This document shows positions 1 through 63,539 of a DNA stretch of 64,000 nt, piece by piece (the first letter of the stretch is position 1; each line of letters opens with the position of its first letter). The notes under the pieces were generated by a model, which saw only the letters and a list, made by a program, of their open reading frames with translations, did not search any database and had not been told where the DNA came from. Origin of the DNA: Tetraselmis striata. Lineage: Eukaryota; Chlorophyta; Chlorodendrophyceae; Chlorodendrales; Chlorodendraceae. Made by a program: the position numbers and the translations under genes. The stretch lies in NCBI GenBank assembly GCA_006384855.1, contig VCJN01002417.1, forward strand, positions 185,036 to 249,035, in the 5' to 3' direction.

Positions 1-2821
1 AATATCAGGCATTAGCCCTACTGCCTTGTAGTCCGTATAGTATCGTCAAGCCGGTGCGTGTTCACATCCCTTTCATGCCATGCAGCCCCGCATACTCATA
101 AATGGTTTGCAGCCATCTAGACAATTGAAGCATGCCTTAAGGCAGCATCTGCGGTGCAGCGCTGCAGCAATCTGCGGCGTGCCGCCAGCAAATATCAGGC
201 ATTAGCCCTACTGCCTTGCAATCTGCATAGTATCGTCAAGTAGGTGCGTGCTCATATCCCTTCTATGCCATACAGCCCCGCATACTAATAAATGATTTGC
301 AGCCATCCAGTCAATTAAAACATGCCTTAAGGCAGCATTTGCGGTGCAGCGCTTCAGCAATCTGCGGCGTGCCGCCAGCAAATATCAGGCATTAGTTAGC
401 CCTACTGCCTTGCAGTCCGTATAGTATCGTCAAGCCGGTGCGTGTTCATATCCCTTCTATGCCATGCAGCCCCGCATACTAATAAATGGTTTGCAGCCAT
501 CCAGGCAATTGAAGCATGCCTTAAAGCAGCATCTGCGGTGCAGCGCTGCAGCAATCTGCGGCGTGCCGCCAGCAAATATAACGTATTAGCCCTACTGCCT
601 TGCAGTCCGTATAGTATCGTCAAGTAGGTGCGTGTTCATATCCCTTTCATGCCATACAGCCCCGCATACTAATAAATGGTTTGCAGCCATCCAGTCAATT
701 AAAACATGCCTTAAGGCAGCATCTGCGGTGCAGCGCTGCAGCAATCTGCGGCGTGCCGCGAGCAAATATCAGGCATTAGCCCTACTGCCTTGCAATCTGC
801 ATAGTATCGTCAAGCCGGTGCGTGCTCATATCCCTTTCATGCCATACAGCCCCGCATACTAATAAATGATTTGCAGCCATCCAGTCAATTAAAACATGCC
901 TTAAGGCAGCATCTGCGGTGCAGCGCTTCAGCAATCTGCGGCGTGCCGCCAGCAAATATCAGGCATTAGCCCTACTGCCTTGCAGTCCGTATAGTATCGT
1001 CAAGCCGGTGCGTTTTCATATCCGTTTCATGCCATGCAGCCCCGCATACGAAATGGTTTGCAGCCATGTAGGTAAATGGCTGCAGCAATCTGCGGCGTGC
1101 CGCCAGCAAATATAACGTATTAGCCCTACGGCCTTGCAGTCCGTATAGTATCGTCAAGCCGGTGCGTGTTCATATCCCTTTCATGCCATGCAGCCCCGCA
1201 TACTAATAAATGGTTTGCAGCCATCTAGACAATTGAAGCATGCCTTAAGGCAGCATCTGCGGTGCAGCGCTGCAGCAATCTGCGGCGTGCCGCCAGCAAA
1301 TAACAGGCATTAGCCCTACTGCCTTGTAGTCCGTATAGTATCGTCAAGCCGGTGCGTGTTCACATCCCTTTCATGCCATGCAGCCCCGCATACTAATAAA
1401 TGGTTTGCAGCCATCTAGACAATTGAAGCATGCCTTAAGGCAGCATCTGCGGTGCAGCGCTGCAGCAATCTGCGGCGTGCCGCGAGCAAATATCAGGCAT
1501 TAGCCCTACTGCCTTGCAATCTGCATAGTATCGTCAAGTAGGTGCGTGCTCATATCCCTTCTATGCCATACAGCCCCGCATACTAATAAATGATTTGCAG
1601 CCATCCAGTCAATTAAAACATGCCTTAAGGCAGCATCTGCGGTGCAGCGCTTCAGCAATCTGCGGCGTGCCGCCAGCAAATATCAGGCATTAGCCCTACT
1701 GCCTTGCAGTCCGTATAGTATCGTCAAGCCGGTGCGTGTTCATATCCCTTTCATGCCATGCAGCCCCGCATACTAATAAATGGTTTGCAGCCATCCAGGC
1801 AATTGAAGCATGCCTTAAGGCAGCATCTGCGGTGCAGCGCTGCAGCAATCTGCGGCGTGCCGCCAGCAAATATAACGTATTAGCCCTACTGCCTTGCAGT
1901 CCGTATAGTATCGTCAAGTAGGTGCGTGTTCATATCCCTTTCATGCCATACAGCCCCGCATACTAATAAATGGTTTGCAGCCATCCAGTTAATTAAAACA
2001 TGCCTTAAGGCAGCATCTGCGGTGCAGCGCTGCAGCAATCTGCGGCGTGCCGCCAGCAAATATCAGGCATTAGCCCTACTGCCTTGCAATCTGCATAGTA
2101 TCGTCAAGCCGGTGCGTGCTCATATCCCTTCTATGCCATACAGCCCCGCATACTAATAAATGATTTGCAGCCATCCAGTCAATTAAAACATGCCTTAAGG
2201 CAGCATCTGCGGTGCAGCGCTTCAGCAATCTGCGGCGTGCCGCCAGCAAATATCAGGCATTAGCCCTACTGCCTTGCAGTCCGTATAGTATCGTCAAGCC
2301 GGTGCGTGTTCATATCCGTTTTATGCCATGCAGCCCCGCATACGAAATGGTTTGCAGCCATGTAGGCAAATGGCTGCAGCAATCTGCGGCGTGCCGCCAG
2401 CAAATATGAGGTATTAGCCCTACGGCCTTGCAGTCCGTATAGTATCGTCAAGCCGGTGCGTGTTCACATCCCTTCTATGCCATGCAGCCCCGCATACTAA
2501 TAAATGGTTTGCAGCCATCTAGACAATTGAAGCATGCCTTAAGGCAGCATCTGCGGTGCAGCGCTGCAGCAATCTGCGGCGTGCCGCCAGCAAATATCAG
2601 GCATTAGCCCTACTGCCTTGCAATCTGCATAGTATCGTCAAGTAGGTGCGTGTTCACATCCCTTCTATGCCATGCAGCCCCGCATACGAAATGGTTTGCA
2701 GCCATCTAGGCAATAGAAGCATGCCTTAAGGCAGCATCTGCGGTGCAGCGCTGCAGCAATCTGCGGCGTGCCGCGAGCAAATATCAGGCATTAGTGGTAC
2801 TGCCTTGCAATCTGTATAGTA
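1..2821 (+). repeat. ~190-bp satellite array, plus orientation
   Basis: Tandem monomers of about 190 bp, with some short ~150-bp variants that lack a ~38-bp block (for example near 1050-1100). Landmarks recur once per monomer: GTATCGTCAAG, ATGCCATGCAGCCCCGCATAC, GGTTTGCAGCCAT, TGCCTTAAGGCA and TGCAGCGCTGCA; the last two are perfect palindromes. A higher-order period of about 1294 bp is visible (442 equals 1736, 632 equals 1926). The open frames in this array are repeat shadows, not genes. Confidence 0.95.
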
Positions 2822-3011
2822 TTGTAAAGCATATGGGCAATTAAATCCCCTTTTTCGTCATAAAAATCCTCATACTGGAAGGTTGCCGAGCCGGCTCTTT
2901 ACCTTCCACCGTCTTGGTCGACGACCGCTACTACCAGGTCGTAGCGGCGCCGCGTCAGGCTGGCGGGTCCTCTAAGCCCGCATCTCAACCACCGCCACCG
3001 GGGTCCGGCGG

Positions 3012-3803
3012 AGATGGCTCCCAAAACGGCGCTGCAGCAGGTCTCTTGATCGAGCTTCGAGCAGCTCCGTCCCTCCCCCGAGCAGGCTTGGTCCCTTGGA
3101 GACTGCCAAGCCGCCGAGTGAGCCTCAGCCTTCGAGTGCGACGAAGCGCCCGCACGGTGCGTTGAGCACGGCAGGCAAGACCAGCTTGTCGCCCATTAAG
3201 CTGCGCAAAAAGCATTCCAAGAAGCGCGGGCCGAGTCCTCCTTCAAGATGGCGAAAAAGTTGGAGGACAACGACCCCTTCCATGCGCCTAAGCCGAAACG
3301 CGAAGCCACGTCAAGCCGTCAGGCGCCTTCGGGTGCCGCTGGTGGGAGTCGCAGGGCCACATCTTCCCGTGGCGGTGCCGCATCTCCGCCTCCCCGACCC
3401 GCATCTCCGCCTATTGAGGCAAGAGCAGCAGCTTGTCGCCCATTAAGCTGCGCAAGAAGCATTCCAAGAAGCGTGGGCCGACTCCTCCTTTAAGATGGCG
3501 AAAGAGTTGGAGGACGACGACCCCTTCCATGCGCCTAAGCCGAAACGCGAAGCCCCGTCAAGCCGTCAGGCGCCTTCGGGTGCCGCTGGTGGGAGTCGCA
3601 GGGCCACATCTGCACGTGGCGGTGCCGCATCTCCGCCTCCCCGACCCGCATCTCCGCCTAAGGAGCCCTCATCTCGGGACGCGAAGCCCGCACCGCCGCC
3701 TGCGCCGACATCTCGCCCCAACGCCGCGTCGCTGTCAGCAGGGTTCAGAGGTAGCATCTCGTTGCGACGAACACAATCTCTGAGGTCGGCGATAGACTCG
3801 TAG
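3012..3803 (+). pseudogene. Low-complexity Lys/Ser/Pro-rich gene remnant (copy L)
   Basis: I do not recognise the protein. Open segments encode a Lys/Arg-rich piece (KLRKKHSKKRG) and two versions of an acidic start followed by a basic, Ser/Pro-rich tail (MAKKLEDNDPFHAPKPKREA at 3248, MAKELEDDDPF at 3495). The second version reads on to 3803. The useful frames are not continuous: an in-frame TAA precedes the first acidic start in both orientations of the repeat, so splicing or decay is required. The composition suggests a nuclear or nucleic-acid-binding tail, but that is only inference. It lies in the ~1.2-kb non-satellite arm of the giant element, so it may be the element's cargo or a remnant of its own gene. 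Confidence 0.3.
3184..3680 (+). repeat. Two tandem ~247-bp repeats in the element arm
   Basis: The segment starting at the motif SPIKLRKKHSKKRG and running through a Lys-Arg-Ala and Gly-Gly-Ser-Arg stretch occurs twice in tandem (methionine landmarks at 3248 and 3495, 247 bp apart). The same pair occurs inverted at about 5935-6420. Confidence 0.8.
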
Positions 3804-4029
3804 GCCCGGGGCGTCTTCTCTGCGCGAGTGAGGCTCGATTTCCAGGTTTGAAAAGCTTGAAACGCAGTCGCCATGCCCTCGCGTCCGCAATCTTCCAAGG
3901 TGAGGCGGATAGTACTTTACGCGACTGAGGGCGCGAAGAGGACACGCCGATGTGCCATTTCTAATACTCTCGTATAGTATTGCATTGCACCTGAAATGTG
4001 ACCGAAAAATGGGTACATATCCCAGCCTA

Positions 4030-4101
4030 AGCGATCACGTGGGGGGCACATTTTTGAGTCCAAGAATTGGACCGTTTTGACTCAAAAATGTGCCCTGTAC
4101 C
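4030..4101. repeat. Terminal hairpin of giant element copy L
   Basis: GGGCACATTTTTGAGTC and its exact reverse complement GACTCAAAAATGTGCCC are separated by 18 bp. The element therefore ends in a 17-bp perfect stem, followed by TGTACC at 4096-4101. Confidence 0.85.
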
Positions 4102-4121
4102 CCATCCACGCACCCTCCATC

Positions 4122-5512
4122 ATGGCCACCTACGCCACGCTAATTCCAGGCACCCCCTACGGCAAAGCTGTGAGGCCTGAGGGCATGACCATACCACTCG
4201 GTGCTATGTGCAACACGGGCCGCATCGTTGAGGACGTGCGGCATGCACTTTTCCGCGGCCATGCGACCAACGGCCATATCCGCGTTCACCCAGAGCAACC
4301 CCATGGCGAGGACGCGTTCGGCTATGCTTTCGCAGACATACTGAACAACAGCGCTGAGCCAAAGCAGTACGACGCAGCCGGCAAGAAGCACATGCTTGAG
4401 GCAGGTTTTCAAGTGTCCGATTCGGGTGTCGTCACGCTGTATTTTACCTCGTGCGTACCCGACGCGATGCGTGCCCAGATCTCAAACCCAGCACCCGAGG
4501 CGGCGCCAACCCCCGACCCCACGGGATCTGACACGGGCACCGGCGTTAAAACGCCCCCGTCGACGTTCCATCCCTTGTTGTCAGTACGATCCGGGGGCGG
4601 GCGTCCACCCTGAAAGATACACTGAGTCGGCGGGTGGCTGACATGAGTGCGTGGAGGATTTGAATTTCACAGGCGTTGACCGCCCCGTGCCGCGTTTTTG
4701 CCGTTGCTCCTGCAGCTGAGGACAAGGCGGTGCTGTTGGATGTCTTCAACGAATGCTGGCCGCGCGACACTCAGACGGGGACCCCTTACCCTCCGAAGAA
4801 GACGCATAGGTTTCACATCGCCGCGCCCCCGTACATCGAGCGGACATGCTACACTACCTTCAACTACCGTACTGGCTACACAGCCGACAACCACGTCTAC
4901 GCCAAGGAGACCGTCATGGCCGCGTTCCGAGAGTACACCCCTCCCCCTTCCTCCCAACCCCACTGCGAACATCCTTGTGGGTTGTGCTGACGGAGCACCG
5001 CGTGATGTACAAGAAGGAGGGGAATGTGAGGGGCTACCTCGTCCGGCACTACTTCCAGGATGAGGGCAAGGACGGCCAAGGAGGTAGGAAGAAGGGACCA
5101 GACCATTGCCAAGCGCGGACCGACTCGCGAAGACCCTCGACCTTGCAGAGGCATGGCACCAGAGCAAGCTGGGGAGGTACTACCAAGCCGGCAAGTGCCC
5201 CCTTGCTGACGTGACGTTCAAGGGCGAGGAGGAGGTCTCCGAGGTGACGCCGCACAGGGAAGCCGCAGGTGAGTCGCGTTTGTTCCCGCACTTGTTCGAT
5301 TACACAGCCATCGCCGCCGCGACAAGCAATCAACACGCATATCGACATTCGTTGACCCCCGCCATGTTCACACGTTCGGCGGTAAGCCGATCGTATCGAC
5401 TGTTCAGCGCAACAAGATCGTGTCGCTGCCGCTAGCGGGCACCGCTGAGTCACCAAAGCTCCACAGCTTGGTGGTCGTGCTGGCGCAGCAGCATAAGAGG
5501 GCGCGCGGGCGG
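4122..5512 (+). pseudogene. Unrecognised multi-exon gene, 5' part, interrupted by giant element
   Basis: The ATG at 4122 opens a frame to 4613 starting MATYATLIPGTPYGKAV. Later pieces follow in other frames. One, from an acceptor near 4670 (ATTTCACAG), encodes a segment with NYRTGYTADNHVYAKE; others encode HRVMYKKEGNVRGYLVRHYF and SKLGRYYQAG; the last, around 5385, encodes GGKPIVST. A GTGAGT donor near 5270 supports splicing. The homologous copy at 61028-62688 keeps the same order, so this was one gene. I cannot assign a function. The reading stops at 5512, where the giant element begins, and the rest resumes at 19428. Frame changes within the piece suggest it was already decaying. Confidence 0.5.
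5502..5512. repeat. 11-bp target-site duplication, left copy
   Basis: CGCGCGGGCGG immediately precedes the element terminus GGTACAGGGC. The same 11 bp follow the right terminus at 19428-19438. The uninterrupted homologue near 62430 has one related GGGCGGGCGG at this place. Confidence 0.65.
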
Positions 5513-5650
5513 GGTACAGGGCACATTTTTGAATCAAAACGGTCCAATTCATGGACTTAAAAAGGTGCCCCCCACGTGATCGCTTAGACTGGGATACGTA
5601 CCCATTTTTCGGTCACATTTCAGGTGCAATGCAAAACTATACGAGAATAC
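5513..5650 (+). repeat. Left terminal inverted repeat of giant element copy R
   Basis: Includes the terminal hairpin (GGGCACATTTTTGA ... TGCCCCCC) and the subterminal block with ACTATACGAGAATACTAT. It matches the minus strand of 4101-3960 closely and the minus strand of 19427-19290 more loosely. Confidence 0.7.
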
Positions 5651-5933
5651 TATAAATGGCACATCGGCGTGTCCTCTTCCCGCCCTCAGTCGCGTAAAGT
5701 ACTATCCGCCTCACTTTGGAAGATTGCGGACGCGAGGGCGTGGCGAATGGCGTTTCGAGCAGGAAATCGAGCCTCACTCCCGCAGAGAAGACGCCCCGGG
5801 CCTACGAGTATATCGCCGACCTCAGAGATTGTGTTCGTCGCAACGAGATGCTACCTCTGAACCCCGCTGACAGCGACGCGGCGTTGGGGCGAGATGTGGG
5901 CGCAGGCGGCGGTGCGGGCTTCGCGTCCAGAGG

Positions 5934-5947
5934 TTTAGGGTTTAGGG
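5934..5947 (+). repeat. Interstitial telomere-like tract (TTTAGGG)2
   Basis: Two exact TTTAGGG units replace a short stretch that reads differently in the matching place of copy L (around 3665-3680). TTTAGGG is the usual plant and green-algal telomere unit. Confidence 0.7.
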
Positions 5948-6430
5948 CTCCTTCGGCGGAGATGCGGGTCGGGGAGGCGGAGATGCGGCACGGCCACGTG
6001 AAGATGTGGCCCTGCGACTCCCACCAGCGGCACCCGAAGGCGCCTGACGGCTTGACGTGGCTTCGCGTTTCGGCTTAGGCGCCTGAAAGGGGTCGTTGTC
6101 CTCCAACACTTTCGCCATCTTAAAGGAGGACTCGGCCCACGCTTCTTGGAATGCTTCTTGCGCAGCTTATTGGGCGACAAGCTGCTGCTGATCTTGCCTC
6201 CATAGGCGGAGATGCGGGTCGGGGAGGCGGATAGGCGGCACCGCCACGGGAAGATGTGGCCCTGAGACTCCCACCAGCGGCACCCGAAGGCGCCTGGCGG
6301 CTTGACGTGGCTTCGCGTTTCGGCTTAGGCGCCTGGAAGGGTCGGCGTCCTCCAACTCTATCACAGTCTTGAAGGAGGACTCGGCCCGAGCTTCTTGGAA
6401 TGCTTCTTGCGCAGCTTATTGGGTGACAAG
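5935..6430 (-). pseudogene. Low-complexity Lys/Ser/Pro-rich gene remnant (copy R)
   Basis: This is the inverted counterpart of 3184-3803, again with the basic KLRKKHSKKRG segment and the Pro/Ser-rich tail, in two tandem ~247-bp units. Methionine starts and frames differ between the units, and an in-frame TAA lies upstream of the acidic start, as in copy L. The product is not recognised, and the piece is probably non-functional. Confidence 0.3.
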
Positions 6431-6789
6431 CTGCTCTTGCCTCCCGTGCTCAACGCACCGTGCGAGCGCTTTGTCGCACTCGAAGGTTGAGGCGGCTTGG
6501 CAGTCTCCGAGGGACCAAGCCTGCTTGCGGGAGGGGCGGAGCTGCTCGAAGCTCTATCAAGAGACCTGCTGCAGCCGCCGTTTTGGGAGACATATCCGCC
6601 AGACCCCGGTGGCGGTGGTTGAGATGCGGGCTTGGAGGACCCGCCAGCCTAACGCGGCGCTGCTACGACGTGGTTGTAGCGGTTGTCGACGAAGACGGTG
6701 GGGGGGTAAAAAGCTGGCTCGGCAACCTTCCAGTATTAGGATTTACATGACAAAAAGGGGATTTTTTCGCATATTGCAAGGCAATACCA

Positions 6790-9700
6790 CTAATGCCCGA
6801 TATTTGCTCGCGGCACACGGCAGATTGCTGCACCGCTGCACCGCAAATACTGCCTTAAGGCATGCTTTAATTGCCTAGATGGCTGCAAACCATTTAGGAT
6901 GCGGGGCTGCATGGCATAGAAGGGATGTGAACACGCATTGGCTTGACGATACTATGCAGTTTGCAAGGCAGTAGGGCTAATGCCTGATATTTCCTGGCGG
7001 CACACCGTAGATTGCTGCGGCGCTGCACCGCAGATGCTGCCTTAAGGCATGCTTTAATTGCCTGGATGGCTGCAAACCATTTAGTATGCGGGGTTGCATG
7101 GCATAAAAGGGATGTGAACACGCATCGGCTTGACGATACTATACTGATTGCAAGGCAGTACCGCCAATACCTAATATTTCCTGGCGGCACACCGCAGATT
7201 GCTGCACACATTTGCCTAGATGGCTGCAAACCATTTATTAGCATGCGGGGCTGCATTGCATGAAAAGGATGTGAACACGCACCGGCTTGACGATACTATG
7301 CAGTTTGCAAGGCAGTAGGGCTAGTGCCTGATATTTCCTGGCGGCACACCGCAGATTGCTGCAGCGCTGCACCGCAGATGCTGCCTTAAGGCATGCTTTA
7401 ATTGCCTAGATGGCGGCAAACCATTTATAAGTATGCGGGGTGCATTGCATGAAAGGGATGTGAACACACACCGGCTTGACGATACTATACGGACTGCAAG
7501 GCAGTACGGCTAATACTTGATATTTGCTGGCGGCACGCCGCAGATTACTGCAGCGCTGCACCGCAGATGCTGTCTTTAAGCATGTTTTGATTGCCTAGAT
7601 AGCTGCAAACCATTTAATATGCGGGGCTGCATGGCATAGAAGGGATATGAACACGCACCTGCTTGACGATACCATACAGATTGAGGGGCAGTAGGGCTAA
7701 TACCTGATATGTGCTGGCGGCACGCCGCAGATTGATGCAGCGCTGCACCGCAGATGCTGCCTTAAGGCATGCTTTAATTGCCTGGATGGCTGCAAACTGT
7801 TTATGAGTATGCAGGGCTGCATGGCATAGAAGGTATATGAACACGACCGGCTTGACGATACCATACAGATTGCAAGGCAGTAGGGCTAGTACCTGATATT
7901 TGCTGGCGGCACGCCGCAGATTACTGCAGCGCTGCACCGCAGATGCCGCCTTTAAGCCTGTTTTGATTGCCTAGATAGCTGCAAACCATTTAGTATGCGG
8001 GGCTGCATGGCATAGAAGGGATATGAACACGCACCTGCTTGACGACACCATACAGATTGCAGGGCAGTAGGGCTAATACCTGATATTTGCTGGCGGCACG
8101 CCGCAGAGTGATGCAGCGCTGCACCGCAGATGCTGCCTTAAGGCATGCTTTAATTGCCTGGATGGCTGCAAACTATTTATGAGTATGCAGGGCTGCATAG
8201 CATAGAAGGTATATGAACACGACCGGGCAGATACCATACATATTGCAGGGCAGTAGGGATAATATTTTATATTTCCTGGCGGCACACCGCAGATTGCTGC
8301 AGCGCTGCACCGCAGATGCTGCCTTTAAGCATGTTTTGATTGCCTAGATGGCTGCAAACCATTTAGTATGCGGGGCTGCATGGCATAGAAGGGATATGAA
8401 CACGCACGTGCTTGACGACACCATAAAGATTGCAGGGCAGTAGGGCTAATACCTGATTTTTGCTGGCGCCACGCCGCAGATTGCTGCAGCGCTGCACCGC
8501 AGATGATTCCTTAAGGCATGCTTGAATTACGTAGATGGCTGCAAACCATTTAGTATGCGGGGTGCATGGCATAAAAGGGATGTGAACCCGCACCTGCTTG
8601 ACGATACCATACAGATTGCAGGGCAGTACGGCTAATGCCTGATATTTCCTGGCGGCACACCGTAGATTGCTGCGGACATTTGCCTAGATGGCTGCAAACC
8701 ATTTATTAGTACGCGCGGCTGCATTGCATGAAAAGGAAGTGAACACGCACCGGCTTGACGATACTATGCAGTTTGCAAGGCAGTAGGGCCAGTGCATGAT
8801 ATTTGCTCGCGGCACACCGCAGATTGCTGCAGCGCTGCACCGCAGATGCTGCCTTAAGGCATGCCTTAATTGCCTGGATGGCTGCAAACCATTTAGTATG
8901 CGGGGTTGCATGGCATAAAAGGGATGTGAACACGCATCGGCTTGACGATACTATACAGATTGCAAGGCAGTACCGCCAATACTTGATATTTCCTGGCGGC
9001 ACACCGCAGGTTGCTGCAAACATATGCCTAGATGGCTGCAAACCATTTATTAGCATGCGGGACTGCACTGCATGAAAAGGATGTGAACTAGCACCGGCTT
9101 GACGATACTATGCAGTTTGCAAGGCAGCAGGGCTAGTGCTTGATATTTGCTCGCGGCACACCGCAGATTGCTGCAGCGCTGCACCGCAGATGCTGCCTTA
9201 AGGCATGCCTTAATTGCCTGGATGGCGGCAAACCATTTATTAGTACGCGGGGTGCATTGCATGAAAGGGATGTGAACACACACCTGCTTGACGATACTAT
9301 ACAGACTGCAAGGCAGTACGGCTTATACTTCATATTTGCTGGCGGCACGCCGCAGATTACTGCAGCGCTGCACCGCAGATGCTGCCTTTAAGCATGTTTT
9401 GATTGCCTAGATGGCTGCAAACCATTTAGTATGCGGGGCTGCATGGCAGAGAAGGGATATGAACACGCACCTGCTTGATGACACCATAAAGGCTGATAAC
9501 CATTTAGTATGCGGGGTTGCATGGCATAAAAGGGATGTGAACCCGCACCTACTTGACGATACCATATAGATTGCAGGGCAGTACGGCTAATGCCTGATAT
9601 TTCCTGGCGGCACACCGTAGATTGCTGCAGACATTTGCCTAGATGGCTGCAAACCATTTATTAGTATGCGCGGCTGCATCGTATGAATAGGATGTGAACA

Positions 9701-12700
9701 CGCACCGGCTTGACGATACTATGCAGTTTGCAAGGCAGTAGGGCCAGTGCATGATATTTGCTCGCGGCACACCGCAGATTGCTGCAGCGCTGCACCGCAG
9801 ATGCTGCCTTAAGGCATGCCTTAATTGCCTGGATGGCTGCAAACCATTCAGTATGCGGGGTTGCATGGCATAAAAGGGATGTGAACACGCATCGGCTTGA
9901 CGATACTATACAGATTGCAGGGCAGTAGGGATAATACCTGATATTTCCTGGCGGCACACCCCAGGTTGCTGCAAACATATGCCTAGATGGCTGCAAACCA
10001 TTTATTAGTATGCGGGGCTGCATTGCATGAAAAGGATGTGAACTAGCACCGCTTGACGATACTATGCAGTTTGCAAGGCAGCATAGCTAGTGCTTGATAT
10101 TTGCTCGCGGCACACCGCAGATTGCTGCAGCGCTGCACCGCAGATGCTGCCTTAAGGCATGCTTTAATTACCTAGATGGCTGCAAACCATTTAGTATGCG
10201 GGGCTGCATGGCATGAAAGGGATGTGAACACGCACCTGCTTGACGATACTATACAGACTGCAAGGCAGTACGGCTAACACTTCATATTTGCTGGCGGCAC
10301 GACGCAGATTACTGCAGCGCTGCACCGCAGATGCTGCCTTTAAGCATGTTTTAATTGCCTAGATGGCTGCAAACCATTTAGTATGCGGGGTTGCATGGCA
10401 TAAAAGGGATGTGAACCCGCACCTACTTGACGATACCATACAGATTGCAGGGCAGTACGGCTAATGCCGGATATTTCCTGGCGGCACACTGTAGATTGCT
10501 GCAGACATTTGCCTAGATGGCTGCAAACCATTTATTAGTACGCGCGGCTGCATTGCATGAAAAGGATGTGAACACGCACCGGCTTGACGATACTATGCAG
10601 TTTGCAAGGCAGCAGGGCTAGTGCTTGATATTTGCTCGCGGCACACCGCAGATTGCTGCAGCGCTGCACCGCAGATGCTGCCTTAAGGCATGCTTTAATT
10701 ACCTAGATGGCGGCAAACCATTTATTAGTACGCGGGGTGCATTGCATGAAAGGGATGTGAACACACACCTGCTTGACGATACTATACAGACTGCAAGGCA
10801 GTACGGCTTATACTTCATATTTGCTGGCGGCACGCCGCAGATTACTGCAGCGCTGCACCGCAGATGCTGCCTTTAAGCATGCCTTAATTGCCTGGATGGC
10901 TGCAAACCATTTAGTATGCGGGGTTGCATGGCATAAAAGGGATGTGAACACGCATCGGCTTGACGATACTATACAGATTGCAAGGCAGTACCGCCAATAC
11001 CTGATATTTCCTGGCGGCACACCGCAGGTTGCTGCAAACATATGCCTAGATGGCTGCAAACCATTTATTAGCATGCGGGACTGCACTGCATGAAAAGGAT
11101 GTGAACTAGCACCGGCTTGACGATACTATGCAGTTTGCAAGGCAGCAGGGCTAGTGCTTGATATTTGCTCGCGGCACACCGCAGATTGCTGCAGCGCTGC
11201 ACCGCAGATGCTGCCTTAAGGCATGCTTTAATTACCTAGATGGCGGCAAACCATTTATTAGTACGCGGGGTGCATTGCATGAAAGGGATGTGAACACACA
11301 CCTGCTTGACGATACTATACAGACTGCAAGGCAGTACGGCTTATACTTCATATTTGCTGGCGGCACGCCGCAGATTACTGCAGCGCTGCACCGCAGATGC
11401 TGCCTTTAAGCATGTTTTGATTGCCTAGATGGCTGCAAACCATTTAGTATGCGGGGCTGCATGGCAGAGAAGGGATATGAACACGCACCTGCTTGATGAC
11501 ACCATAAAGGCTGATAACCATTTAGTATGCGGGGTTGCATGGCATAAAAGGGATGTGAACCCGCACCTACTTGACGATACCATATAGATTGCAGGGCAGT
11601 ACGGCTAATGCCTGATATTTCCTGGCGGCACACCGTAGATTGCTGCAGACATTTGCCTAGATGGCTGCAAACCATTTATTAGTATGCGCGGCTGCATCGT
11701 ATGAATAGGATGTGAACACGCACCGGCTTGACGATACTATGCAGTTTGCAAGGCAGTAGGGCCAGTGCATGATATTTGCTCGCGGCACACCGCAGATTGC
11801 TGCAGCGCTGCACCGCAGATGCTGCCTTAAGGCATGCCTTAATTGCCTGGATGGCTGCAAACCATTCAGTATGCGGGGTTGCATGGCATAAAAGGGATGT
11901 GAACACGCATCGGCTTGACGATACTATACAGATTGCAGGGCAGTAGGGATAATACCTGATATTTCCTGGCGGCACACCCCAGGTTGCTGCAAACATATGC
12001 CTAGATGGCTGCAAACCATTTATTAGTATGCGGGGCTGCATTGCATGAAAAGGATGTGAACACGCACCGCTTGACGATACTATGCAGTTTGCAAGGCAGC
12101 ATAGCTAGTGCTTGATATTTGCTCGCGGCACACCGCAGATTGCTGCAGCGCTGCACCGCAGATGCTGCCTTAAGGCATGCTTTAATTACCTAGATGGCTG
12201 CAAACCATTAAGTATGCGGGGCTGCATGGCATGAAAGGGATGTGAACACGCACCTGCTTGACGATACTATACAGACTGCAAGGCAGTACGGCTAACACTT
12301 CATATTTGCTGGCGGCACGCCGCAGATTACTGCAGCGCTGCACCGCAGATGCTGCCTTTAAGCATGTTTTGATTGCCTAGATGGCTGCAAACCATTTAGT
12401 ATGCGGGGTTGCATGGCATAAAAGGGATGTGAACCCGCACCTACTTGACGATACCATACAGATTGCAGGGCAGTACGGCTAATGCCGGATATTTCCTGGC
12501 GGCACACTGTAGATTGCTGCACACATTTGCCTAGATGGCTGCAAACCATTTATTAGCATGCGGGACTGCACTGCATGAAAAGGATGTGAACTAGCACCGG
12601 CTTGACGATACTATGCAGTTTGCAAGGCAGCAGGGCTAGTGCTTGATATTTGCTCGCGGCACACCGCAGATTGCTGCAGCGCTGCACCGCAGATGCTGCC

Positions 12701-15700
12701 TTAAGGCATGCTTTAATTACCTAGATGGCGGCAAACCATTTATTAGTACGCGGGGTGCATTGCATGAAAGGGATGTGAACACACACCTGCTTGACGATAC
12801 TATACAGACTGCAAGGCAGTACGGCTTATACTTCATATTTGCTGGCGGCACGCCGCAGATTACTGCAGCGCTGCACCGCAGATGCTGCCTTTAAGCATGT
12901 TTTAATTGCCTGGATGGCTGCAAACCATTTAGTATGCGGGGTTGCATGGCATAAAAGGGATGTGAACACGCATCGGCTTGACGATACTATACAGATTGCA
13001 AGGCAGTACCGCCAATACCTGATATTTCCTGGCGGCACACCGCAGGTTGCTGCAAACATATGCCTAGATGGCTGCAAACCATTTATTAGCATGCGGGACT
13101 GCACTGCATGAAAAGGATGTGAACTAGCACCGGCTTGACGATACTATGCAGTTTGCAAGGCAGCAGGGCTAGTGCTTGATATTTGCTCGCGGCACACCGC
13201 AGATTGCTGCAGCGCTGCACCGCAGATGCTGCCTTAAGGCATGCTTTAATTACCTAGATGGCGGCAAACCATTTATTAGTACGCGGGGTGCATTGCATGA
13301 AAAGGATGTGAACACACACCTGCTTGACGATACTATACAGACTGCAAGGCAGTACGGCTTATACTTCATATTTGCTGGCGGCACGCCGCAGATTACTGCA
13401 GCGCTGCACCGCAGATGCTGCCTTTAAGCATGTTTTGATTGCCTAGATGGCTGCAAACCATTTAGTATGCGGGGCTGCATGGCAGAGAAGGGATATGAAC
13501 ACGCACCTGCTTGACGACACCATACAGATTGCAAGGCAGTAGGGCTAATACCTGATATTTGCTGGCGGCACGCCGCAGATTGCTGCAGCGCTGCACCGCA
13601 GATGCTGCCTTAAGGCATGCTTTAATTGCCTGGATGGCTGCAAACAATTTAGTATGCGGGGCTGCATGGCATAGAAGGTATATGAACACGTCCGGCTTGA
13701 CGATACCATACATATTGCAGGGCAGTAGGGCTAATACCTGATATGTGCTGGCGGCACACCGCAGATTACTGCAGCGCTGCACCGCAGATGCTGCCTTAAG
13801 GCATGCTTTAATTGCCTGGATGGCTGCAAACTATTTATGAGTATGCAGGGCTGCATGGCATAGAAGGTATATGAACACAACCGGCTTGACGATACCATAC
13901 AGATTGCAAGGCAGTAGGGCTAATATTTTATATTTCCTTGCGGCACACCGCAGATTACTGCAGCGCTGCACCGCAGATGCTGCCTTAAGGCATGCTTTAA
14001 TTGCCTGGATGGCTGCAAACTATTTATGAGTATGCGGGGCTGCGTGGCATAGAAGGGATATGAACACGCACCTGCTTGGCGATACCATACAGATTGCAGG
14101 GCAGTAGGGCTAATACCTGATTTTTGCTGGCGGCACGCCGCAGATTGACGCAGCGCTGCACCGCAGATGCTGCCTTTAAGCATGTTTTGATTGCCTAGAT
14201 GGCTGCAAACCATTTAGTATGCGGGGCTGCATGGCAGAGAAGGGATATGAACACGCACCTGCTTGATGACACCATAAAGGCTGATAACCATTTAGTATGC
14301 GGGGTTGCATGGCATAAAAGGGATGTGAACCCGCACCTACTTGACGATACCATATAGATTGCAGGGCAGTACGGCTAATGCCTGATATTTCCTGGCGGCA
14401 CACCGTAGATTGCTGCAGACATTTGCCTAGATGGCTGCAAACCATTTATTAGTATGCGCGGCTGCATCGTATGAATAGGATGTGAACACGCACCGGCTTG
14501 ACGATACTATGCAGTTTGCAAGGCAGTAGGGCCAGTGCATGATATTTGCTCGCGGCACACCGCAGATTGGTGCAGCGCTGCACCGCAGATGCTGCCTTAA
14601 GGCATGCCTTAATTGCCTGGATGGCTGCAAACCATTCAGTATGCGGGGTTGCATGGCATAAAAGGGATGTGAACACGCATCGGCTTGACGATACTATACA
14701 GATTGCAGGGCAGTAGGGATAATACCTGATATTTCCTGGCGGCACACCCCAGGTTGCTGCAAACATATGCCTAGATGGCTGCAAACCATTTATTAGTATG
14801 CGGGGCTGCATTGCATGAAAAGGATGTGAACACGCACCGCTTGACGATACTATGCAGTTTGCAAGGCAGCATAGCTAGTGCTTGATATTTGCTCGCGGCA
14901 CACCGCAGATTGCTGCAGCGCTGCACCGCAGATGCTGCCTTAAGGCATGCTTTAATTACCTAGATGGCTGCAAACCATTTAGTATGCGGGGCTGCATGGC
15001 ATGAAAGGGATGTGAACACGCACCTGCTTGACGATACTATACAGACTGCAAGGCAGTACGGCTAACACTTCATATTTGCTGGCGGCACGCCGCAGATTAC
15101 TGCAGCGCTGCACCGCAGATGCTGCCTTTAAGCATGTTTTAATTGCCTAGATGGCTGCAAACCATTTAGTATGCGGGGTTGCATGGCATAAAAGGGATGT
15201 GAACCCGCACCTACTTGACGATACCATACAGATTGCAGGGCAGTACGGCTAATGCCGGATATTTCCTGGCGGCACACTGTAGATTGCTGCAGACATTTGC
15301 CTAGATGGCTGCAAACCATTTATTAGTACGCGCGGCTGCATTGCATGAAAAGGATGTGAACACGCACCGGCTTGACGATACTATGCAGTTTGCAAGGCAG
15401 TAGGGCCAGTGCATGATATTTGCTCGCGGCACACCGCAGATTGCTGCAGCGCTGCACCGCAGATGCTGCCTTAAGGCATGCCTTAATTGCCTGGATGGCT
15501 GCAAACCATTTAGTATGCGGGGTTGCATGGCATAAAAGTGATGTGAACACGCATCGGCTTGACGATACTATACAGATTGCAAGGCAGTACCGCCAATACC
15601 TGATATTTCCTGGCGGCACACCGCAGGTTGCTGCAAACATATGCCTAGATGGCTGCAAACCATTTATTAGTATGAGGGGCTGCATTGCATGAAAAGGATG

Positions 15701-16600
15701 TGAACACGCACCGGCTTGACGATACTATGCAGTTTGCAAGGCAGCAGGGCTAGTGCTTGATATTTGCTCGCGGCACACCGCAGATTGCTGCAGCGCTGCA
15801 CCGCAGATGCTGCCTTTAAGCATGTTTTGATTGCCTAGATGGCTGCAAACCATTTAGTATGCGGGGCTGCATGGCAGAGAAGGGATATGAACACGCACCT
15901 GCTTGACGACACCATACAGATTGCAAGGCAGTAGGGCTAATACCTGATATTTGCTGGCGGCACGCCGCAGATTGCTGCAGCGCTGCACCGCAGATGCTGC
16001 CTTAAGGCATGCTTTAATTGCCTGGATGGCTGCAAACAATTTAGTATGCGGGGCTGCATGGCATAGAAGGTATATGAACACGTCCGGCTTGACGATACCA
16101 TACATATTGCAGGGCAGTAGGGCTAATACCTGATATGTGCTGGCGGCACACCGCAGATTACTGCAGCGCTGCACCGCAGATGCTGCCTTAAGGCATGCTT
16201 TAATTGCCTGGATGGCTGCAAACTATTTATGAGTATGCAGGGCTGCATGGCATAGAAGGTATATGAACACAACCGGCTTGACGATACCATACAGATTGCA
16301 AGGCAGTAGGGCTAATATTTTATATTTCCTTGCGGCACACCGCAGATTACTGCAGCGCTGCACCGCAGATGCTGCCTTAAGGCATGCTTTAATTGCCTGG
16401 ATGGCTGCAAACTATTTATGAGTATGCGGGGCTGCGTGGCATAGAAGGGATATGAACACGCACCTGCTTGGCGATACCATACAGATTGCAGGGCAGTAGG
16501 GCTAATACCTGATTTTTGCTGGCGGCACGCCGCAGATTGATGCAGCGCTGCACCGCAGATGCTGCCTTTAATCATGCTTTAATTGCCTTGATGGCTGCAA
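6790..16600 (-). repeat. ~190-bp satellite array, minus orientation, with higher-order repeats
   Basis: This is the reverse complement of the satellite at 1-2821. Monomers of ~190 bp alternate with ~155-bp variants that lack the block containing the CTGCACCGCAG and TGCCTTAAGGCA motifs. Higher-order repeats are evident: 9388-11405 and 11406-13423 are near-identical 2018-bp units, most of the unit recurs at 14176-15800, and a block at 13424-14175 recurs at about 15806-16567. Nucleosome-scale monomers with multi-monomer repeats resemble centromeric or heterochromatic satellites. That role is inference only. Reading frames inside are shadows. Confidence 0.95.
9388..13423 (-). repeat. Two tandem 2018-bp higher-order repeat units
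   Basis: Several landmarks recur exactly 2018 bp apart: 9388 and 11406, 10340 and 12358, 10625 and 12643. The two units differ by only scattered substitutions, so this expansion is recent compared with the divergence between monomers. Confidence 0.85.
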
Positions 16601-16624
16601 ACCATTTAGTATGCGCGGTTGCAT

Positions 16625-16770
16625 GAATCACCAACCTGCGCCGGCTGCCGCGCGTTGGCGCCGCGCTGCGCCGGCCGCGCTGCCCCGGCCGCGGCGCGTT
16701 GGCGCCGCCCTGCCCCGCTGCCCCGGCCGCGGCGCGTTGGCGCCCCGCTGCCCCGGCCGCGCTAGCAAAG
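16625..16770 (+). repeat. GC-rich minisatellite (CTGCCCCGGCCGCG...TTGGCGCC)
   Basis: Imperfect ~25-35-bp units of Ala/Arg/Pro-coding GC-rich sequence. The block plus the following GCTAGCAAAGGAA...GTTTGTGAAATCGACGGAAA is homologous to 60436-60575, and a reverse-complement version of the unit occurs at 34005-34140. This shows a dispersed repeat family. Confidence 0.75.
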
Positions 16771-16929
16771 GAAGTGCGGTTTGTGAAATCGACGGAAAGG
16801 AGTCGATTCAAACGCTTATCTGCGGTCGAGAATGATTTGTTATGATCGTTGATTATGATTAATGAGGTATTGCGCAGGGAGCTATGGCAGCGAGTTTCAA
16901 GCTGCATGAATCCCTTGTCACGTACCATA

Positions 16930-18150
16930 CAGGAACCCACGTTGCTTGCCGAGATGCTCCGAGAGATGCGCCCTTAAAGTCGCCGAATCTCTTCCGACGA
17001 CCAACCACAACGCGACCGTTGGTGTCGGGGTTTCTTGGGTGCTTTGACGCGATGATAAGTGCACGACCCGCTGTCAACAGATTGTGGAGGTAGTCCATTT
17101 GCGGGAGGGCGGGCCCTTGCGTCAAGTAGGTTCTCGGAATCTGCACGCGATAGATTTCCGCCTTGGAGGCCGCCAGCAGCTATAGGAGCAAATTCAGGTG
17201 AGTGAACCAAGGCGACATGACAACGACAAAGGGCTCCTTGCCTAGGGCAGCGTTACAAGAGCTAGGGGAGACAGTACACGGGTTTGTACACGAGAGATGC
17301 GGGCGTTCACCTGCCCCCACTGCGGAGATGCGGGTAATCCCACCCTTTACGGTCAATCCGATCTCTCCACCCTCCGCATCTCTTGCTGCTTTGACGTCCG
17401 CGAGGACGTACCCGTCGTCCCCAATGGTGGCCTCCGGGCTGCAGTGCCGCATCTCTTTCGCCGCCGCCGCCGCTGTGGTTCGCTGTCACGCATACACGAA
17501 CCCACGTTGCTTGCCGAGGTGCTCCGAGAGATGCGCCCTTGAAGTCGCCGAATCTCGTCCGACGACCAACCACAATGCGCGTCTGTTGGTGTCGGGGTTT
17601 CTTGGGTGCTTTGACGCGATGAGAAGTGTACGACCCGCTTTCAACAGACTGTGGATGTAGTTCATTCGCGGGAGGGGTCCTTGCGTCAAGTAGGTGCTCA
17701 AAATCTGCACGCGATAGATTTACGCCTTGTAGGCCGCCACCAGCGGTTGGGGCAAATTCAGGTGAGTGAACCAAGGCGACGTGACAACTACAAAGGGATC
17801 CTTGCACATAGCGTTACAAGAGCTAGGAGCGACAGTACACGGGTTTGTACGCGAGAGATGCGAGCGCTCATATGCCCCCACTGCGGAGATGCAGGTAATC
17901 CCACCCTCTACCTTTTAATTCTCTCCACCCTCCGCATCTCTTGCTCGTCAGTCGTGCCAGCGGTGGCCTCAGCTTTGACGTCCGCGAGGACGTACCCGTC
18001 GTCCCCAATGGTGGCCTCCGGGTTCCAGTGCCGCATCTCTCGCCGCCGCCATGGTTCTCGCTGTCTCGCATACACGAACCCACGTTGCTTGCCAAGGTGC
18101 TCCGAGAGTTGCGCCCTTGAAGTCGCCGAATCTCGTCCGACGACCAGCTT
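16930..18150. repeat. ~570-bp tandem repeat, about 2.2 copies, coding status unknown
   Basis: The landmark GTTGCTTGCCGAG[AG]TGCTCCGAGAG occurs at about 16940, 17504 and 18083 (spacings ~564 and ~579). Each unit also carries GTCGGGGTTTCTTGGGTGC and an AATTCAGGTGAGTGAACC segment. Both strands have moderately long open frames (for example minus 17307-17807), but none is recognisable and none survives in all copies. Confidence 0.7.
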
Positions 18151-19290
18151 CAAGGCGTCGACAATTGTCACATCTCGCCCCCTCCTGACGGCAGTGAGTG
18201 GCGCGCAGCAATTGAAAAAGGTGATGAGGAGCAACCCCCCCCCCCCCCCCCCCCGCCACGCCGTCGACATGGGCATGACCCGAGCTGCAGTCCGGGTCTG
18301 CCATGACGAGGGCTTTTGCCGGGCCATTTTACCAAGGGACGAGATTCGCATCTGCCGGTGAGCTTCTTAAACATACTCGTTGCAAATCCCCCGCAGCTCG
18401 TAGTACACAAGCCGGTGGTCTTCACATGCCAAGAAGGCCCGCATGTTCACTGCGCTCTCGTCCCTGCCCCTCCCTTGCAGTCTGAGGTCATGGTACTGCG
18501 GATCGTGCATGAGGTGTTAGAGGTCGTTGGCAGACATGGAGGAAAACACGAAACGGGTGGGAAACGGGGCGGGTGTCACCACTCATGTCGAGATGCGCGA
18601 CGGTGAGATGCGCTTAACGCAGGCCACGGCGCCATGATGAGAGATGCAAGCGAAAATGCGAGTCCGCGTACCGTTGGAGTCGCTCCTGGGAGAGGGACAA
18701 AAGGTGGCACACCGTGAGGCTTGGGGGTCAGGCTGAGGCTCGCGGTGAGACGAAGGCTGCGAATCTCCGGCCCCGGGCCATAGCGATCCGCTTCCATGTT
18801 GCCCACCGCCCGGCTGCATGGGCCTCATGGGCTGAGTCGTGGGTATTGGCGCCTGAGACGCCCTCCTGCCGGAACGCAAGTGAATCTGCGGAGAATCTTG
18901 CGCCATGGGGGTCACTAGCAGTGTGAAGAGAGCCCTGCTCGTTGGGTCAAAGCCAAGTGCAGCCGCAGATGTCCCCGCCACGCACAGGACTCTGCAAGCG
19001 GGAAGATGTGCGTTTTGCTCTGCCATGACGGTATGCCATGCTTTTGTGCACCGAAGAAGAGTTAAGATGCCTCAAAGAATACAAGCGCGAGGGAGCTTGC
19101 GAGGGGTAGATGAGTGGGAAGATCAGTGGCGGCGTAGTTTTCGAGGCCAGAAAAAACGGTTAGCATGGAAGGGTAGCGACGCATCTCGTCAAAGGGCGGT
19201 GGACAGGCGTGAAGTGCGTAGTGCATGTTCATTTCACTGAATAGTACCTCGTACAGTACTGGCAAGAAAAGGAATGTGTCAAAGGCCAGT
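18150..19290. other. Unassigned interior of giant element
   Basis: No recognised gene. A poly(C) run lies at about 18236-18254. Open frames on both strands (minus 18583-19026, plus 18905-19240) are Pro/Ser/Arg-rich without a recognisable domain. Confidence 0.5.
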
Positions 19291-19427
19291 TTCACAGTAC
19301 ATTCGTACAGTATTAGGCGTAACTAAAATTTGCAACCCCCAAAAGGGGTACAATATTGAGTTAAGGGGGGTGCAATTTTGAGTCCATAAATGTGCCCATT
19401 TTGACTCAATAATCGCCCTTATTTTAC
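19290..19427 (-). repeat. Right terminal inverted repeat of giant element copy R
   Basis: Contains TGCAATTTTGAGTCC and GACTCAATAATCGCCC in inverted relation. Further inside are GGGGTAC and GTACAGTACTGG/GTACAGTATTAGG, which correspond to the subterminal TACTATACGAG block at the left end. It ends at ATTTTAC (19427) before the 11-bp duplication. Confidence 0.65.
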
Positions 19428-20005
19428 CGCGCGGGCGGCATCATCAAGCACAACACCAACGCGGTCAAGAACTTGGCCGCCACGCAAGCCGTTTCCGGCG
19501 ACAACGTCGACGAGTGCAGTAGCCCGGAGCCCCCGGCCAAGAAGGCCATGCAACCCGCCAAGCCGGCGGCTGGAGGGCTCGCCCGGGGCCATGGTGGTGC
19601 TGGGGCCATGGCGGGCGGTGGGGCGCTCGGGTCGAGGGCCAGCCGCCGGGCCGCCGTAGCCGCTGCAGCCACCCGCGAGCAGCAGGCCGGCCGCCGAGGC
19701 GGTCCCGGTCAAAACCAGATGTAAAGAATTTATTCCGCCCGCCCACGGCCGCGCGCTCACTGGCTGTGACGCGCGCGCTATCACGGATTAGGCCAGAGCA
19801 CAGCGAGAATGTCGGGCTTCCAAGGGCAGATGCAAGAGTAGTCCGCTAGGGATGATCCGTCGTGATGATGAGTGATATGCGCCTGATGCAGTTTATTACG
19901 AGTATGTCACGGAATGACTACAGACGAGTGTCATACTACTGGTAAGATTACGGGATAAATACAGGGTAATACCGTATAATTACGAAGTCACGCGGGAGCC
20001 TAGTG
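19428..20005 (+). pseudogene. Unrecognised gene, 3' part (continuation of 4122-5512) and 3' flank
   Basis: The frame starting GGIIKHNTNAVKNLAA runs to a stop at 19724, with an Ala/Arg/Gly-rich tail (AAVAAAATREQQAG). It matches 62436-62688 of the second copy almost codon for codon, and the following non-coding 280 bp match 62689-62983. Similarity to the second copy ends at 20005 with GGGAGCCTAGTG. The reverse complement of that end begins CACTAGGCTCCCG, a CACTA-type terminus. The 11-bp duplication at its start marks the rejoining point with the 5' part. Confidence 0.55.
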
Positions 20006-34004: not shown

Positions 34005-34140
34005 TAGCGCGGCGCCAAGGCGCGGCGGCCGGGGCATCGCGGCGCCAAGGCGCGGCGGCCGGGGCAGCGCGGCGCCAAGGCGCGGCGGCCGGGGCAGCGC
34101 GGCGCCATGGCGCGGCGGCCGGGGCAGCGCGGCGCCAACG
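34005..34140 (+). repeat. 30-bp GC-rich minisatellite
   Basis: About 4.5 units of GCGGCGCCAAGGCGCGGCGG-CCGGGGCA. The reverse complement relates to the GC-rich blocks at 16625-16770 and 60436-60530. Confidence 0.9.
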
Positions 34141-39017: not shown

Positions 39018-39042
39018 TTAGACAGCGGTAAGCGACGTAAAG

Positions 39043-58430: not shown

Positions 58431-58439
58431 ACACTGCAA

Positions 58440-60433: not shown

Positions 60434-60435
60434 GC

Positions 60436-60575: not shown

Positions 60576-61027
60576 TTTAACTCTTATATGCATCCATCGC
60601 GCGCAGTTGGGGCAGTACGACTTGTGTTGGTATGACCTACCCACCGTTTGGCAGTAGCCCTGACGTATAATCAGCCGCTTGTATGACTGTCAAGGCTTGT
60701 GCAGACGCGTACAATCGATTTAAAAGAGGAATACGCCAGATTCCGCGACCATTGCCCGTTAAGGGTAGCTACGGCCGAAGTACGGTTTTTGTCGCAAGTG
60801 TGTGTCAAATGTGTCCTCATGGAATAAACGCGAAATGCGGGATAGATACGGTACATTACGCGGTGGTTACGCAGCAAGCCAGAGTGCGCTAACATCGGAG
60901 CGCGATGAGAAGTCGTCTCGGCGCGCGTTTTCTTGGAATAAAGCAGCATATGCGCCCACCTGGCGCACACTCGCCACCCGATATAGACAATACCGTACTT
61001 GCTCATCCCCAGCACGCACCCTCCATC

Positions 61028-62688
61028 ATGGCCACCTACGCCACGCTAATTTTAGGCACCCCTACGGCAAAGCTGTGAGGCCTGAGGGCATGACCATACC
61101 ACTTCGTTGCTATGTGCAACACGGGCCGCATCGTTGAGGACGTGCGGCAGGCACTGTTCCGCGGCCATGCGACCGAGATCCATATCCGCGTTCACCCAGA
61201 GCAACCCCAGGGCGACGACGCGTTCGGCTATGCTTTCGCGGACATGCTGAACAACTGCGCTGAGCCAAAGCAGTACGACGCAGCCGGCAAGAAGCACCGT
61301 GCGTGAGGCACGTTTTCAAGTGTCCGATTCGGGTGTCGTCATGCTGTATTTACCTCGTGCGTACCCGACGCGATGCGTGCCCAGATCTTGAACCCAGCAC
61401 CCGAGGCGGCGCCAAACCCCCGACCCCACGGATCTGACACGGGGCACCGGCGTTAAGAACGCCCCCGTCGACGTTCGACGTTCCATCCCTTGCTGTCAGT
61501 ACGATCCAGGGGCGGGCGTCCACCCCGAAAGGTACACTGAGTCGGCGGGTGGCTGACATGACTGCTGGGAGGATTTGAATTTCACAGGCGTTGACCCGCC
61601 CCGTGCCGCGCTTTTGCCGTTGCCCTGCAGCTGAGGACAAGGTGGTGTTGTTGATGTCTTTGACGGATGTCTGGCCGCGCGACACTCAGACGGGATCCCC
61701 TTACCCTCTGAAGAAGACGCAGAGGTTTCCCATCGCCGCGCCCCGTACATCGAGCGGATATGCTAACACTACCTTCAACTACCGTGCTGGCTACACAAGC
61801 CGACAACCCACGTCTACGCCAAGGAGACCGCCATGGCCGCGTTCCGAGAGTACACCCCCTCCCCCTTCTCCCAACCCCACTCCGACCATCCTTGTGCGGT
61901 TGTGCCGACGGTGCACCGCGTGATGTACAAGAAGCAGGGGAAACGTGAGGAACTACCTCGTCCGGCACTACTTCAAGGATTGAGGGCATGACGGCCAAGG
62001 TAGGAAGAGGTAGGAAGAAGGGACCCTTGCCGAGCGCGGACCGACTCGCGAAGGCCCTCGACCTTGCAAAGAGAGGCATGCACCAGAGCAAGTTGGGGAG
62101 GTACTACCAAGCCGGTAAGTTCCCCCCTGCTGACGTGATGTTCAAGGGCGAGGAGGAGGTATGCCGAGATGACGCCGCACTAGGAAGCCGCAGGTGAGTC
62201 GCGTTTGTTTCCCTCACTTGTTCGATTACACAGCCACCGCCGCCGCGACAAGGCAATCAACACGCATACCGACTTTCGCAGTTGCTGTGTGCAGACCCCC
62301 GCTCTGTCCCTACGTTCGGCGGTAAGCCGATCGTATCGACTGCTCAGCGCAACAAGATCGTGTCGCAGCCGCTAGCGGGCACCGCTGAGGCACCAAAGCT
62401 CCACAGCTTGGTGGGTGTGCTGGCGGGAAGAGGGCGGGCGGCATCATCAAGCCCAACACCAACGCGGTCAAGAGCTTGGCCGCCAGGCAAGCCGTCCCCG
62501 GCGACAACGTCGACGAGGGCAGTAGTCCGGAGCCCCCCCAAGAAGGCCAAGCAACCCGCCTAGCCGGGGCAAGGGCGGGCGGTGGGGCGCTCGGGTCGCG
62601 GGCCGGCCGCCGGGCCGCCGTAGCCGCTGCCGCCACCCGCGAGCAGCAAGCCGGCCGCCAAGGCGGTCCCGGTCAAAACCGGATGTAA
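61028..62688 (+). pseudogene. Unrecognised multi-exon gene, second (uninterrupted) copy
   Basis: Collinear with 4122-5512 plus 19428-19724 but full of small indels. One base is lost after the start (GGCACCCCTACGG versus GGCACCCCCTACGG), which ends the first frame early. An out-of-frame piece follows from 61112 (MCNTGRIVEDVRQALFRGHA), then SKLGRYYQAGKFPPADV near 62090. After a GTGAGTC donor come GGKPIVSTAQRNKIVSQPLA near 62320 and GGIIKPNTNAVKSLAA to a stop at 62688. It shows the pre-insertion order of the gene. The protein has a conserved N-terminal half, a Gly/Ala/Arg tail, and no recognisable domain. Confidence 0.55.
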
Positions 62689-62986
62689 AGAATTTATTCC
62701 GCCTGCCCACTGCCGCGCCGCCCACTGCCGCGCGCTCACTGGTTGCGACGCGCGCGCTGTCACGGATTAGGCTAGAGCACAACGAGATTGTCGGGCTTCT
62801 AGAGGCAGACCCCGGATAGTCCGCTGGGGAGAATCCGTCGTGATGATGAGTGATATGCGCCTGATGCAGTTTATTACGAGTATGTCACGGAATGACTACA
62901 TACGAGTGTCATACTACTTAGAAGATAACGGGATAAGTACATGGTATTACAGTATTAATACGAAGTCACACGGGAGCCTCGTGTTA

Positions 62987-63538: not shown

Positions 63539-63539
63539 C

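Follow-up and report, generated by a model that had tools for sequence, protein, structure and literature searches.

A 64,000-nucleotide stretch of the Tetraselmis striata genome (the window; G000:C1950:185036-249035) contains a 13.9-kb element in which a long satellite array lies between inverted ends. The element was first described in an earlier note made from the letters of the window, and its central observation, a satellite-carrying element with inverted ends and a flanking duplication, was confirmed. Comparison with the whole assembly (224 Mb, 2,903 contigs) leads us to conclude that the element very probably belongs to a non-autonomous DNA-transposon family of a few hundred members, most likely Mutator-like, that plants satellite arrays at its insertion sites, and that the array in the window was probably expanded in place later. 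Many gene models labelled Tetstr1/TSEL resemble a protein encoded in the window, some with 97% identity along part of their length. The features of the window that bear on this conclusion are listed in Table 1.

Table 1. Positions of the element, its parts, its insertion site and a second family member, counted from the first nucleotide of the window
Feature	Position	Strand	Basis or remark
Whole element, 13.9 kb, non-autonomous, probably Mutator-like	5513..19428	+	inverted ends, 10-bp duplication, family comparison
Target-site duplication, left copy, GCGCGGGCGG, 10 bp	5503..5512	.	
5' terminal inverted repeat	5513..5573	+	end-to-end alignment, hairpin folding
5' unique region	5513..5947	+	5718-5887 match transposase-coding sequence in C771
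~250-bp tandem repeat, 2 copies	5948..6444	+	family comparison
~187-190-bp satellite array, ~9.85 kb	6773..16625	+	
Higher-order repeats within satellite array	8720..15512	+	lags 2018, 2770, 4788; 97.8-98.6%; 13525-14052 excluded
30-bp GC-rich repeat array, degenerate and short in this copy	16636..16763	+	
~595-bp tandem repeat, about 2 copies	16916..18157	+	
3' unique region	18161..19428	+	
3' terminal inverted repeat	19364..19428	+	end-to-end alignment
Target-site duplication, right copy, GCGCGGGCGG, 10 bp	19429..19438	.	
Interrupted repeated sequence, left part	4107..5485	+	
Interrupted repeated sequence, right part	19431..20005	+	
Uninterrupted paralogue of insertion site, broken frames	61013..62983	+	
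Second family copy, 5' end at 4101, extending left beyond the window; 8,058 bp in all	1..4101	-	overlooked in the earlier note

A family of satellite-bearing elements

The two ends of the window element are imperfect inverted repeats that can be aligned over about 56 bp. Their alignment score of 40 falls within the range of 40-55 found across 19 elements of the family, while the best of 380 random interior controls scored 18. The 5' end is located at 5513, as first described, and the 3' end one base further out than the 19427 given in that description. A 17-bp hairpin is possible at the 5' tip of a typical copy, L035 (z -5.8); in the window copy this hairpin is partly eroded and weaker (z -3.4), and the hairpin at the 3' tip is the weakest (z -2.4; as good in 5 of 200 shuffles). 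About 71% of the element is satellite, with units mostly of 153-190 bp, and the 2-kb higher-order repeats that had been reported within a ~190-bp satellite were found again: 2,787 bp recur at a lag of 2018 (98.6% identity), and 1,460 bp recur at lags of 2770 (97.8%) and 4788 (98.3%).

A pattern search of the genome, with up to two mismatches allowed, detected 229 5' tips and 277 3' tips, and a reversed control detected none. Searches with longer terminal sequences scored the best 40 of 430 candidates for the 141-bp 5' end and the best 40 of 568 for the 3' end, and 20 loci were fetched out of the 40 listed 5'-end matches. Both ends were present in 18 of these loci (L025, which has a 1.6-kb insert, and L028 are without a 3' end), and satellite was present in 19, including 17 of the 18 with two ends; the satellite-free exception, L031, is a 1.4-kb deletion derivative. 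As far as the loci were read, their parts follow a common order: 5' region, ~250-bp repeat, ~187-bp satellite, 30-bp GC-rich repeat, ~595-bp repeat and 3' region. Individual arrays are sometimes reduced to one or two units, and the main satellite arrays of the fetched loci measure 0.55-1.85 kb. None of ten open reading frames of a typical element had a Pfam match above the cut-off. In two further loci, L040 and L041, the modules of the element are differently arranged and partly resemble the larger relatives on contigs C771 and C626 described below.

Tips were paired using the first 100 listed of each kind; 78 of the 100 5' tips lay on contigs within the range of the 3' list. This gave 43 pairs in the right order, spanning 736-9,417 bp with a median of 6,122 bp, compared with 5 pairs in the reversed order used as a control. 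Because 40 of the 43 pairs span 3.9-9.4 kb, the 13.9-kb window copy is an expanded outlier of the family. Thus the ~10-kb array within inverted ends to which the earlier note had drawn attention is true of this copy, but not of the typical element. The second copy, only 1.4 kb from the insertion of the first, has its 3' tip at C1950:181079 and a satellite of ~3.3 kb (C1950:184547-187865); its 5' region is on average 98% identical to those of other members.

Target-site duplications were scored by script in the copy of the window and in the 18 elements fetched with both ends. A perfect 10-bp duplication was found in 16 of these 19, of which that of L030 is uninformative because it lies within poly-C. 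In L032, 9 of 10 bases agree, and L017 scored 2 of 10 by script and 10 of 10 by eye; a 3' end shorter by three bases accounts for the low score. Among 342 mismatched end pairings used as a control, none scored 10 of 10 and one scored 9. The duplication in the window had been given as 11 bp; the 11th base is indeed shared, but it lies beyond the 10-bp rule of the family. The search by termini that the earlier note had proposed thus yielded many other copies, with satellite in nearly all fetched loci and 10-bp duplications in most. Its inference of a transposable element able to move or seed satellite arrays in this genome is likewise supported by these copies, with the amendment that the element carries four kinds of array and not one.

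The insertion site itself was compared with the uninterrupted paralogue. The left flank (4107-5485) is 90% identical to 61013-62425 and the right flank (19431-20005) is 83% identical to 62434-62983. Once joined, the flanks align through the paralogue, but the empty site is imperfect because the paralogue has gaps of 7 and 4 bases at the junction. The interrupted sequence had been described as a gene split by the insert, with an uninterrupted homologue at 61.0-62.7 kb. The paralogue does exist, but an intact gene was rejected, since the frames are broken in both copies; given these frames and a third partial match in L033 (about 410 bp, 75%), the sequence is better named a repeated, partly degenerate one.

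Larger relatives and the superfamily

The two longest exact tip pairs, on contigs C771 (9,417 bp) and C626 (9,158 bp), represent larger relatives with the same tips. The portions read, 4.4 of 9.4 kb and 2.1 of 9.2 kb, overlap and together cover about half of the element length. On the plus strand of C771 there are two transposase-like open pieces (L052:395-1408 and 1438-2298), in which we take D, D, E and CxC..CxH motifs to be recognizable; both match Tetstr1 gene models that are without any Pfam domain. A genome search with the second piece gave 143 matches, six of them at 97-100% identity. Two of the six, C771 and C626, are enclosed by exact tip pairs. C778 is accompanied by an exact 5' tip at a nearly equal distance (1,788 vs 1,792 bp), and downstream of C1696 there is an exact 3' tip. 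The listed tip closest to C720 is ~9.7 kb off, and C2592 lies beyond the listed tips. Nine other transposase copies (C2640, C2246, C2337, C2461, C2869, C155, C192, C552 and C426) share one identical score at 94% identity to C771 and apparently form a second, young set. The C771-type relative is a probable transposase-bearing partner of the satellite-carrying family, of the kind for which the earlier note had proposed to look.

Parts of the satellite-bearing elements match the interior of these larger relatives. Within its 5' region, a typical copy is 86% identical to transposase-coding sequence of C771, and the copy in the window 87.7%. Identity to the larger relatives is 89-92% for the ~250-bp repeat and the stretch behind it; in the stretch of larger relative read (L048) this repeat is single and lies within open frames of the minus strand. 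For the ~595-bp repeat it is 87-89% across as much as 274 bp, and the 30-bp array is present in both C771 and C626. On the strength of these matches, the family appears to be non-autonomous and to derive, by rearrangement, from a larger relative that shares its tips, and the element looks as if assembled from parts of a two-gene parent, segments of which were made tandem.

Mutator-like elements (MULEs) generate target-site duplications of 8-11 bp. The family described here has 10-bp duplications and terminal inverted repeats of ~56 aligned bp and is probably Mutator-like. A possible link to MULE transposases emerged among 61 places that match the second C771 piece at no more than 45% identity. 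On contigs C354, C2453, C2764 and C2395, relatives of 31-33% identity begin on the same strand as a PF10551 match, 136-147 bp downstream of it, and these are all four of the contigs that hold both such a relative and a PF10551 match. A cut-and-paste superfamily other than Mutator-like is unlikely, though some observations point that way. The four PF10551 matches are weak (30.3-32.1 bits, with a cut-off of 27.6), and the other 57 of the 61 distant relatives are without a PF10551 match on their own contig. The transposase pieces and gene models tested had no Pfam match above the cut-off, to a MULE domain or any other. Against four fetched MULEs the candidate transposase gave no clear match (best E 0.003), and profile comparisons with two MULEs were weak (E 0.24 and 0.021; an unrelated Ty3-like pol used as a control gave 0.46). 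A search of PDB sequences with the candidate returned no match, and the structure of the transposase gene model was predicted with low confidence, at a pLDDT (predicted local distance difference test) of 30. The assignment to Mutator rests on the length of the duplication and on the four weak PF10551 neighbours.

The four fetched MULE loci, L042-L045, which are among 45 PF10551 matches, carry no tips of the family; L042 has matches at 178-bp intervals downstream of its transposase frame, which suggest a tandem array. Membership in other groups was considered and rejected. Foldback elements such as Tetris and Galileo were set aside on the grounds that the ends align over only ~56 bp and the arrays are internal, and Helitrons and Helentrons on the grounds that target-site duplications are present. 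Miniature inverted-repeat transposable elements (MITEs) are short, under about 600-800 bp; the median over the 43 tip pairs is 6.1 kb, with one pair of 736 bp.

Origin and probable growth of the window array

The higher-order copies in the window array differ from one another by 1.4-2.2%. In a star-like tree of 24 5' regions, the private branch of the window copy measures 0.053-0.054, so that the higher-order copies are more alike than this copy is to its family. Because they differ by less than the ~5% private change of the 5' region, the array probably grew within a single copy after insertion. Monomer relationships are consistent with this: the nearest relatives were found only in the monomer's own array for 44 of 46 monomers in the window, 28 of 29 in a long array on C179 and 10 of 14 in the left neighbour, compared with 6 of 70 in the other 17 arrays together. 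In C179 the mean identity of monomers is 0.978 within the array and 0.910 to other arrays.

We propose the following sequence of events. The window element, whose body is made up of the ~187-bp satellite and three further tandem arrays with units of ~250, 30 and ~595 bp, would descend by rearrangement from a larger relative that has the same tips. Transposase supplied in trans would act on the tips and insertion would proceed with a 10-bp stagger, so that each insertion of the array-bearing element would deposit a short satellite array elsewhere in the genome. After insertion the arrays would change length in place, and in the old window copy the satellite would in this way have reached ~9.85 kb with higher-order repeats. 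Either unequal exchange or slippage during repair may have driven the growth, and the data fit both alike.

It should be noted that several observations weigh against this proposal. No inner branch of the 5'-region tree is well supported, and the nearest-relative count favours larger arrays. The mean monomer identity within the window array, 0.876, does not exceed that to other arrays, 0.881. Gene conversion could also make internal repeats look young. The satellite was not found in the portions of C771 and C626 read, about half of the element, and may lie elsewhere in them. In L033 the script found no duplication.

Arrays of this size could instead be mobile themselves, the large array having been part of the element before its insertion here. 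In the window, the full array is bordered by two intact ends and an intact duplication, and other long satellite arrays exist; the sampled arrays and a search that scored the best 39 of 427 candidates together gave 7.3 kb on C914, 6.5 kb on C1284, ~3.5 kb on C2579 and at least 5.7 kb on C179, where the array reaches the contig end. For C914 and C1284 a 3' tip is listed in fitting order, and for C179 the 5' region of the element was read. We nevertheless regard transposition of a ready-made 10-kb array as rather unlikely, since the longest of the 43 exact tip pairs, that of C771, spans 9.4 kb and is satellite-free in the part read, and since both the monomer relationships and the small divergence of the higher-order copies argue for growth within the window copy.

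It is quite improbable that a free genomic satellite was merely captured by, or enclosed in, transposon ends. Satellite-like sequence is plentiful, one 18-mer having 2,043 exact occurrences genome-wide, and the published model for miDNA4 is one of capture of an earlier tandem repeat (PMC12628747). However, the satellite has the same neighbours and the same orientation in the 19 satellite-bearing loci of 20. Five arrays away from listed 5' tips, picked among 100 places listed, all lay within element sequence, some of it truncated or rearranged, and in this small sample no array escaped from the element was seen. A single capture predating the spread of the family is conceivable. Repeat collapse or misjoining during assembly is a very improbable source of the array or its ends. 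Long tandem arrays are prone to such errors, and the C179 array ends where its contig does, but the same architecture recurs amid different flanks with matching 10-bp duplications; the exact length of the window array may be wrong in the assembly. Beyond growth in place after insertion, a further idea is possible, though doubtful: that the satellite exists only in this one transposon family, where pieces of parental genes made tandem became a mobile four-array cassette whose arrays grow in place after each jump and perhaps help the element. If so, tandem arrays may aid their carrier, e.g. as repair templates or chromatin marks.

Neighbouring repeats and known systems

Several other repeats were seen in the window. 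Open frames and three sets of 384-bp tandem repeats follow one another in alternation between 36334 and 56347; one frame contains DUF7869 (E 2.8e-36), another has a weak match only, and a Ty3-like gag-pol was recognized by reading of frames at 39022-44887. Elsewhere, the gene model P0046 unites DUF7869 and integrase SAM-like domains. Possible tyrosine recombinase pieces lie beside the uninterrupted paralogue, at 57699-58514 and 62984-63607 on the minus strand (Phage_int_SAM_1, E 9.8e-6; Phage_integrase, E 0.04, below the cut-off). One 24-bp repeat forms arrays at 23750-24062, 27244-27980 and 29917-31426, and sequence resembling the element's 30-bp GC-rich repeat occurs outside the element at 34006-34142 and 60434-60572. 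Internal tandem arrays may be common in the elements of this genome.

The MuDR element of maize has a transposase gene and a second gene on the opposite strand. The open frames of C771 and C626 suggest a MuDR-like gene pair, the second gene consisting only of open frames without a family match; unlike MuDR, the algal family has short tips and tandem arrays. The nearest parallels to the seeding of satellites come from other systems. Tetris, a foldback element of Drosophila virilis, likewise is a repeat-bearing DNA element that seeds satellites and makes 8-10-bp duplications, and its repeats group by copy in two of three complete elements (PMC4079207). However, the Tetris repeats are inside long terminal inverted repeats, whereas the algal elements have short ends and four kinds of internal arrays, and a source of transposase was not found for Tetris (PMC4079207), whereas the algal family has a candidate partner with the same tips. 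The Xenopus element miDNA4, a Tc1/mariner MITE, also has an internal tandem repeat of variable copy number, which is modelled to grow into satellite (PMC12628747, PMC9659126), but it belongs to another superfamily and has one repeat type. Ogre elements of Lathyrus sativus resemble the algal family in carrying many short arrays in dispersed elements, few of which expanded, one up to 174 kb and mainly at primary constrictions (PMC7004042); unlike it, they are long terminal repeat retrotransposons. In Crassostrea gigas, a non-autonomous Helitron/Helentron element spreads central short satellite arrays, with several array types possible per element (PMC8268682, PMC12628747), but such elements transpose by a rolling circle and make no target-site duplication, whereas the algal elements have 10-bp duplications and inverted ends.

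Growth of transposon-borne satellites is therefore already known from animals and land plants. No report of a family such as this one was found among the listed titles and opening parts of abstracts in the open-access literature, which mostly leaves aside subscription papers. What appears new is the presence of four arrays in a single element, the occurrence in a green alga of a family that makes 10-bp duplications, and a candidate partner whose tips are identical. One satellite can here be compared across many insertions that each have recognizable ends and their own present array length, so that the growth of short arrays into satellites becomes measurable from copy to copy. The range of transposon-borne satellites is also extended to a four-array family of a green alga.

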